Assembly: GCF_011039135.1 (NCBI RefSeq)
Contig: NZ_JAAKEJ010000002.1
Location: 186,001-250,000, forward strand
Source: Desulfovibrio sp. ZJ209
GTDB lineage: Bacteria > Desulfobacterota > Desulfovibrionia > Desulfovibrionales > Desulfovibrionaceae
Length of the DNA: 64,000 nucleotides
Reading direction: 5' to 3'
Shown: one piece after another, positions 42,911 through 44,504 of the stretch
Layout of the letters: every line of letters starts with the position of its first letter
Numbering within the stretch: the stretch's first letter is position 1
Program-made: the position numbers and the translations under genes
Notes under the pieces: model-generated
What the model was told of the DNA's origin: nothing
Seen by the model: the letters and a program-made list of their open reading frames with translations, nothing else
The model's database searches: none

Positions 42911-44504
42911 TCAGCGCGCACAGTACAGTCTCGCGGCCTTTTCCTCAAGAACCAGCACGATGAGCCCGGCCTCCGCGTCAATCAGCAGGGCGCCCGGTTT
43001 CGGCCAGGCCGGTGCCTGCTCCAGAAAGCCCCTGTGTCGCGCACACACCGTATCGCGCGCACCCGTGAAGTTCCCGAAATCCAGTTGTGGCGCAATATAG
43101 TTGAAGATCTCGGCGAAATTTCTCCCCAGATGCTGCGGCCGCTGGAGCTCCAGCGTGCCGTGCCCGTAGCCCGGCCAGAAGCGATTCCCGAAAGCCGGGC
43201 GCTCACCTAGGGCGAGGATGCGCCAGGAGCGGCCGGCGTCAAAGGCCGGCGCGGCCTCGATGCGCGCGAGCATCCGGTTGACATAGAAGAGGTCGGCGTC
43301 GATGGTGATCTTCCACACCTGCAGCGCCCGCGCGTCGCTACCCATGCTGAGGATGACGAGCAGCGCGGCAGCTGCGGTGAAGAGGCGCCCCCAAAGGCCG
43401 CCCGCGCCGAGCGCGACTGTGGCGCAAAAGCTGAGGATGAAGGGCGCGGAATAGTAGTCCATCCGCAAATTGCCGGTATTGGCCGACGCATCGCCCGAAA
43501 TATAGGCGGCCACATTGTTGGTCAGCACGAGCGCGGCGATGAGCAGCAGGCGCAGGACGAAAACGCCCACAGGGATCGGCCCGAGGCGTGGGGCGTGGTA
43601 ACGCGCGGCCGCTTTTTCCGGGCGCGCGAGCAGCAGGACGAAGCCCGCGAGGCAGATACAGGAAAACAGGGCCTTGAACAGTCGGTTCATGGGCGGCTGG
43701 GTCTGCCAGAAACAGGCCACGGAGGCCTTGAGCTGGGGCAGGAGGTTTTTCAGGAAGGCCCCGGCCCCGGCCAGCTGGTTATTGTAAAAGGGCTGCACGG
43801 GGAGCACGAATTTTATCATCAGGACATAGATGACGAGCGCCGCCGCAAATGCGCCGCCATAGCGGAAAAGCGGGACTTTTTCAGCGCGGGCGGACCAGCA
43901 CAGCAGCAGGATGAGCAACACTGTCCAGAAGGTATTGACGATGCACTGGTTGACACCGAGCGCAAAACCAAACAACACAACGGCAAGCAGGAGAGATGCC
44001 TTCCCCTTGGCATGCACGCAGAAATTCGCGCCGAGCAAAAAACAACACAGGGCCACATTTTCGCCGATACCCGCGCCCTCATAATAGAGGCGCCCCAGCA
44101 ACGTGGGGGAAAGGACGAACAACAGCAGGACGAGCAGGAACGACCGCCCCCGTATCTCCCGTGACGCAGGCAAAAGCGTGAGAAAGAGAACCCCGGCGGC
44201 GAACCAGGCGAGGAGGCTGAAACACGGCGTCAGCACGGGCAGGTAGAAGCCCTGCCACACCTGAAGCGGCAGAAAAGCGAAGGGCCGGGATTGCCACGTC
44301 TTGGCGTAGCCGAGCACGGGAGAGAAAATCATCCCCCAGTCGTGGTTGCCAAACAGGAAATTGCAGATAAAGAAGGCATAGACGAGAAAAAAGATCGCCA
44401 AGGCCCAAAGGATCTCACGCCTGCGCGCAGAGAGCGTGCTTTTCAGCCGAGAGAGAGAGAGAGAGAGAGAGAGAGAGAGAGAGAGAGAGAATTTCGGGGC
44501 GCAT
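42911..44504 (-). CDS. GtrII-like membrane glucosyltransferase, phase-variable, out of frame (OFF) in this copy
   Basis: The enzyme frame (about 515 residues after the repeat) has about ten to eleven transmembrane helices and resembles GtrII-type glucosyltransferase-domain proteins that add glucose to O-antigen or other surface glycans: FFICNFLFGNHDWGMIFSPV, then QSRPFAFLPLQVWQG. The only start with a good ribosome site (AGGAG, 7 bases) is the ATG at 44504. It is followed by MRPEI and a (TC)21 tract and, in this sequence, reads into a stop at 44415-44417 after 29 codons. With 19 or 22 repeat units the ATG would join the enzyme frame. The open frame further upstream (to 45262) is antisense to rpsL and rpsG and not credible. 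Confidence 0.8.
44449..44490. repeat. Dinucleotide microsatellite, 21 GA units (TC on the coding strand)
   Basis: Forty-two uninterrupted bases of GA repeat, 14 bases after the A of the glucosyltransferase start codon. Such tracts gain or lose units by slipped-strand mispairing. One frame in three is ON; 21 units is OFF. Confidence 0.95.

Follow-up and report, generated by a model that had tools for sequence, protein, structure and literature searches.

A long TC tract holds a GtrII-like glycosyltransferase gene out of frame in Desulfovibrio sp. ZJ209 and probably acts as a phase-variable switch among genome-wide CT/GA repeats

A gene for a GtrII-like glycosyltransferase of Desulfovibrio sp. 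ZJ209 (locus T8) carries 21 uninterrupted TC units, upstream of which is a start codon furnished with a ribosome-binding site and downstream of which the reading frame is intact; the start is out of frame with the enzyme in the sequenced state. The locus is best interpreted as a contingency locus that undergoes slipped-strand translational phase variation as one locus of a multi-gene phasome, an interpretation to which we assign a probability of about 0.85. Slipped-strand mispairing during replication would add or remove TC units, and changes of one or two units would shift the ATG into or out of frame with the glycosyltransferase. A clone would then be a mixture of cells in which the enzyme is ON (n = 1 mod 3) or OFF, and the sequenced n = 21 would be an OFF state one unit from ON. 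Most probably, the sugar that this enzyme transfers would come from an undecaprenyl-phosphate carrier and be added to a surface glycan facing the periplasm. The locus would belong to a genome-wide CT/GA phasome that spans enzymes acting on surface glycans as well as a Type IIG restriction-modification enzyme. The window that was analysed is a stretch of 64,000 nucleotides; positions refer to it unless a contig (C) or comparison locus (L) is named.

The tract is a perfect (TC)21 on the minus strand, equivalent to (GA)21 on the plus strand, with 100% matches in TRF, and is the top-scoring array of the window. It is preceded directly by the 14-nt sequence ATGCGCCCCGAAAT (44504-44491, minus strand) and followed directly by GGCTGAAAAGC, and begins 14 nt past the A of the ATG. 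The usual cut-off for simple sequence repeats (SSRs) of dinucleotides is six or more units (PMC6321876), which the uninterrupted tract exceeds, and its unit is not a multiple of three. With a first-order model of the window scaled to 2.70 Mb, which was used for all chance expectations of tracts, about 8e-20 CT/GA tracts of at least 21 units would be expected. The features of the locus are listed below, where L027 denotes the syntenic locus described later.

42911-44446, minus strand: intact enzyme frame, 511 codons plus stop, polytopic GT-C, GtrII-like glycosyltransferase
44415-44504, minus strand: short OFF reading frame, 29 codons plus stop at n = 21 (in silico)
44449-44490, minus strand: (TC)21 dinucleotide tract, the proposed switch (sequence, TRF, in silico translation)
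44502-44504, minus strand: ATG start codon, at n = 21 in a different frame from the enzyme
44512-44516, minus strand: AGGAG ribosome-binding site, within TTTTTTCAGGAGA, which is kept in both L027 copies
44536-44541, minus strand: -10-like TATCAC, weak, without the terminal T
44560-44565, minus strand: -35 TTGACA, kept in both L027 copies

In silico translation from the ATG at n = 21 gave MRPEI(LS)n and a stop after 29 codons. When n was varied from 17 to 24, products of 529 and 531 residues were obtained at n = 19 and n = 22, respectively, and products of only 17-31 residues at n = 17, 18, 20, 23 and 24; one TC unit from n = 21 restores the frame. An earlier sequence-only reading had placed the tract 14 nt after the start A in a 29-codon OFF frame, as TRF, the sequence and translation bear out, and its arithmetic (n = 19 or 22 ON; 20, 21 and 23 OFF) was correct. 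The same reading considered the start signals well supported. This holds for AGGAG, the ATG and TTGACA, but TATCAC, located 18 nt from TTGACA, is weak and, for want of the terminal T, was not accepted by a strict sigma-70 scan. As the -10 element is weak by this measure, support for the promoter derives from the conservation of TTGACA, the -10 region and TTTTTTCAGGAGA in both gene copies of the syntenic locus.

That locus (L027), in a MAG of Desulfovibrio sp., lies beside rpsL and rpsG and comprises two tandem gene copies that show 60-65% identity with T8 in the enzyme frame. Copy A has an interrupted tract, (TC)4-C-(TC)4, with an in-frame start possible at GTG, and from its sequence is probably a locked ON form. 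The tract of copy B measures 25 nt, and a TGA just beyond it interrupts the enzyme frame, such that slippage alone cannot open this copy. A tract occupies the same site across the homologues of two lineages, as 42 nt, 25 nt and interrupted 4+4 units. Judged by a dN/dS of 0.29 between the T8 enzyme frame and copy B, the downstream frame is under purifying selection, and a reversible switch would be expected to show just this pairing of selection with a sequenced OFF state. The glycosyltransferase in L027 (1205-5165) is duplicated in tandem along with a small CxxC protein, the window counterpart of which is at 42584-42832. Most GtrII homologues in the genus are without a repeat. The homologue in genome G062 has a frame that breaks at a C10 tract (L054:1483-1492; G062 C17), which by sequence is an independent repeat in the same family as the T8 enzyme.

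The enzyme had been described as a GtrII-like glucosyltransferase. Direct Pfam and NCBIfam scans gave no match of any kind, including to PF14264 (Glucos_trans_II) even at E 10, and among 61 searched genomes of the genus the sole homologue was that of G062 (28% identity, E 1.3e-12), the two halves of which match PF14264 below the cut-off. When 297 genomes of the order were searched with a profile, 13 contained homologues, the own genome counted; these include a paralogue in the own genome at C4:44219. All seven homologues that were scanned exceed the PF14264 cut-off (E 6e-12 to 9e-21). An AF2 model built from a 14-sequence alignment attained pLDDT 72.7 and pTM 0.71; a model from four sequences (pLDDT 46) was set aside. 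When the accepted model was compared with solved structures using VIA-align, the top 43 entries all were GT-C enzymes or their complexes, including OST/PglB, AftD, EmbB, ArnT and ALG6, scoring Z 8.2-14.3 over 230-332 residues; below them, the first unrelated row had Z 4.2. Foldseek with the same model gave no significant E-value (best 0.05), and a sequence profile search of the PDB gave no match. The homologues above the PF14264 cut-off and the GT-C fold of the model thus justify the GtrII-like label, and the modelled protein is assigned as a GT-C glycosyltransferase related to GtrII, not as a Pfam member. By its kinship with GtrII, the enzyme may use glucose as its sugar, with LPS as acceptor. 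Neither gtrA nor gtrB adjoins the gene, the neighbors of which are rpsL and the small CxxC protein. Searches of phage genomes with the enzyme gave no match and hence no indication that the gene is a phage-borne gtr. The only GtrA match in the genome, at C7:49571, is located beside a GT2 gene of the GtrB kind, which makes a supply of flipped carrier-linked sugar plausible.

Three other explanations for the arrangement at T8 were weighed. The gene may simply be broken, the tract being a one-way frameshift in a young pseudogene. The tract is out of frame at n = 21, and genes with tracts do decay, as illustrated by the stop after the tract in copy B of L027 and by an additional stop in a radical-SAM gene with two tracts (T5 and T6 below). 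However, the enzyme frame runs for 511 codons past the tract without a stop and retains the family-invariant residues, dN/dS is about 0.3, the syntenic copy A is in frame, and a single TC unit regains the frame. Decay consequently is an improbable account of T8, although it is the strongest of the three. A miscounted tract in the assembly, with the natural gene fixed in frame, is the least credible. The tract length does rest on one assembly of the species, and assemblers stumble at such tracts, at which contigs of a relative begin or end. Nevertheless, ten long tracts were assembled in this genome, independent assemblies of other species carry tracts at the same positions, and a miscount would not abolish the tract.

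The remaining explanation, very unlikely and ranked between these two, is that the enzyme is produced whatever the tract length, through ribosomal frameshifting or through initiation at internal or upstream sites, and that the tract tunes only the N-terminus or the level of the protein. Possible starts in the enzyme frame, GTG and ATG, precede the tract by 130 and 217 nt, and the repeat encodes stop-free Leu-Ser. Both codons are 5′ of the conserved promoter, however, and starts downstream would lose the first conserved helix, as the first in-frame ATG falls beyond that helix and the invariant His35. Moreover, the best ribosome-binding site belongs to the out-of-frame ATG. Slipped-strand phase variation thus is the preferred reading of T8. 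Mismatch repair usually damps dinucleotide slippage, and Campylobacter and Helicobacter are without this pathway. As mutS is present in the genome, the switching rate at T8 may be low and could be below that of Campylobacter or Helicobacter.

The sequence-only reading had presented T8 as a single 21-unit switch. The tract is real, but it is one among ten CT/GA tracts of at least 11 units that are distributed over nine genes of the genome, compared with 2e-7 expected by chance. The genome-wide census covered dinucleotide and G tracts only: CT/GA of at least 7 units, other dinucleotides of at least 11 units and G of at least 9. The ON and OFF labels assigned below and to other tracts reflect how the frame reads in the assembly and are no measure of expression.

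T1, C1:189934: UbiA prenyltransferase, OFF; the ATG precedes the tract by 20 nt
T2, C1:308246: phosphoglycerol-transferase/sulfatase type, ON
T3, C1:405793: methyltransferase, ON
T4, C1:410361: no family, OFF
T5 and T6, C1:829560 and 830913: two tracts in the same radical-SAM gene, which has an additional stop
T7, C2:148779: membrane protein, ON
T8, 44449-44490 of the window: GT-C, GtrII-like glycosyltransferase, OFF
T9, C3:66563: methyltransferase with a Cys-rich N-terminal part, OFF
T10, C6:37207: Type IIG restriction-modification enzyme (PADLOC E 1e-257), (GA)34, ON

The genes in this set mostly concern surface chemistry and restriction-modification. In the Type IIG gene, (GA)34 plus (GA)8 are in frame at C6:37207-37292 (G000; L026:6208-6293). 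The gene combines an intact DNA methyltransferase with an in-frame repeat, one of the features of a phasevarion, and on its sequence T10 is a candidate phasevarion switch. Phase-variable Type IIG restriction-modification in Campylobacter jejuni reportedly also involves a repeat within the gene, making it a counterpart of T10; the C. jejuni repeat is poly-G, and that of T10 is (GA)34 plus (GA)8. The radical-SAM gene with T5 and T6 (L023:6300-8400; C1:829300-831400) is probably decayed and looks like a contingency gene in decay; an apparently intact paralogue adjoins it at L023:4244-5857. The membrane protein of T7 was considered as a possible GtrII and rejected, as it has no measurable relation to the GtrII profile.

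Taking the set as a whole, we lean toward a Desulfovibrio dinucleotide phasome in which CT/GA tracts would switch independently UbiA glycan-donor synthesis, surface-polymer decoration, GT-C sugar transfer, methylation and Type IIG restriction-modification. This would constitute phage- and host-facing bet-hedging, probably with a phasevarion, in a GC-rich sulfate reducer that possesses mismatch repair. Only one other dinucleotide tract of at least 11 units was detected in the genome, a (TA)21 at the start of a gene for a sulfatase-family membrane protein (L065:3288-3329; G000 C1:962787-962828), which is OFF relative to the best start and the product of which is a possible surface phospho-group transferase. 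Poly-G tracts of 9-12 were not in excess of chance in a crude first-order model. They therefore were counted as secondary, and only clear frame breaks are cited: a G13 in a DNA methyltransferase gene near a contig end (L067:477-489; G000 C4:477), where the frame is broken at the tract, and G12 in a methyltransferase, G16 in an AlgX-like protein and G10 in a Dam-family methyltransferase gene. A G11 in an MBOAT acyltransferase gene is in frame.

Simple-repeat phase variation has been studied mostly in small-genome pathogens. The SSR phasomes of Campylobacter, Neisseria and Haemophilus likewise comprise many repeat-bearing surface-glycan and restriction-modification genes per genome, in which gain or loss of units shifts the frame (PMC6321876; PMC5953494; PMC2651432). 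Those phasomes consist mainly of poly-G/C, which accounts for 91% in Campylobacter (PMC6321876), or of tetranucleotides in Haemophilus, whereas the long tracts in Desulfovibrio nearly all are CT/GA and the host is a GC-rich organism (68% in the window) with mutS. Slipped-strand mispairing leading to in- or out-of-frame translation is established at such loci elsewhere, including at Mycoplasma AG repeats (PMC6321876; PMC3498834). The Type III methyltransferase gene of Mycoplasma mycoides, like T8, has an AG dinucleotide tract within the gene, 12 units of which were OFF and 10 units ON in cloned lines, but this switch controls a DNA methyltransferase in a mollicute rather than a membrane glycosyltransferase (PMC3498834). 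Heterogeneous expression of gtr-type O-antigen modification genes in the Dam/OxyR-controlled gtr operons of Salmonella also can be likened to the predicted behavior of T8; switching there is epigenetic at the promoter, whereas the repeat of T8 is part of the coding sequence and the locus includes no gtrAB operon (PMC2909390).

The open-access literature contained no paper joining Desulfovibrio with SSR phase variation, slipped-strand mispairing or phasevarions, and those titles and abstracts that combine Desulfovibrio with phase variation concern other subjects. The earlier supposition that the switch is undescribed for Desulfovibrio thus holds within this literature. The mechanism is known; within the scope of that search the lineage and gene set apparently are new, and no such system was encountered for sulfate-reducing bacteria. 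If a sulfate reducer has a full repeat set, the strategy would reach a lineage very unlike those pathogens, and a Desulfovibrio phasome could explain surface differences between strains. It would also caution that an annotated frameshift or a contig break at a CT tract may be a switch.

Tracts of at least 12 TC units are present in 8 of 24 relatives of the same genus and in 1 of 16 genomes of other families of the order. The T4 orthologue in G007 has its tract at the same codon (31 nt versus 36 nt), both being OFF with a long open frame beyond, and the T3 orthologue in G004 has a tract at the same place. Tracts occur in G007 also in a GT2 glycosyltransferase gene and an MBOAT gene. In G001, G002, G010, G020 and G022 of the genus most tracts are outside recognizable genes, and CT expansion therefore is not always a coding switch. 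Long CT tracts of this type in other species of the genus were noted at L040, L044, L046-L049, L051 and L052; the repeated flanks that some of them have in common hint at a repeat element as their carrier. At L031:1502-1527 (G002) a tract immediately precedes the start codon of a gene whose product is probably a sensor or a solute-binding protein; this tract possibly tunes expression rather than switching the frame. Finally, a membrane protein encoded beside the UbiA/HAD genes (L020:9394-10944; C1:193393-194943) includes a short degenerate Leu-Ser stretch, SYLSLSLSPSILLSLDPWK, where the neighboring paralogue reads TYFPLYWDPWK; the stretch is probably a former TC tract frozen in frame.
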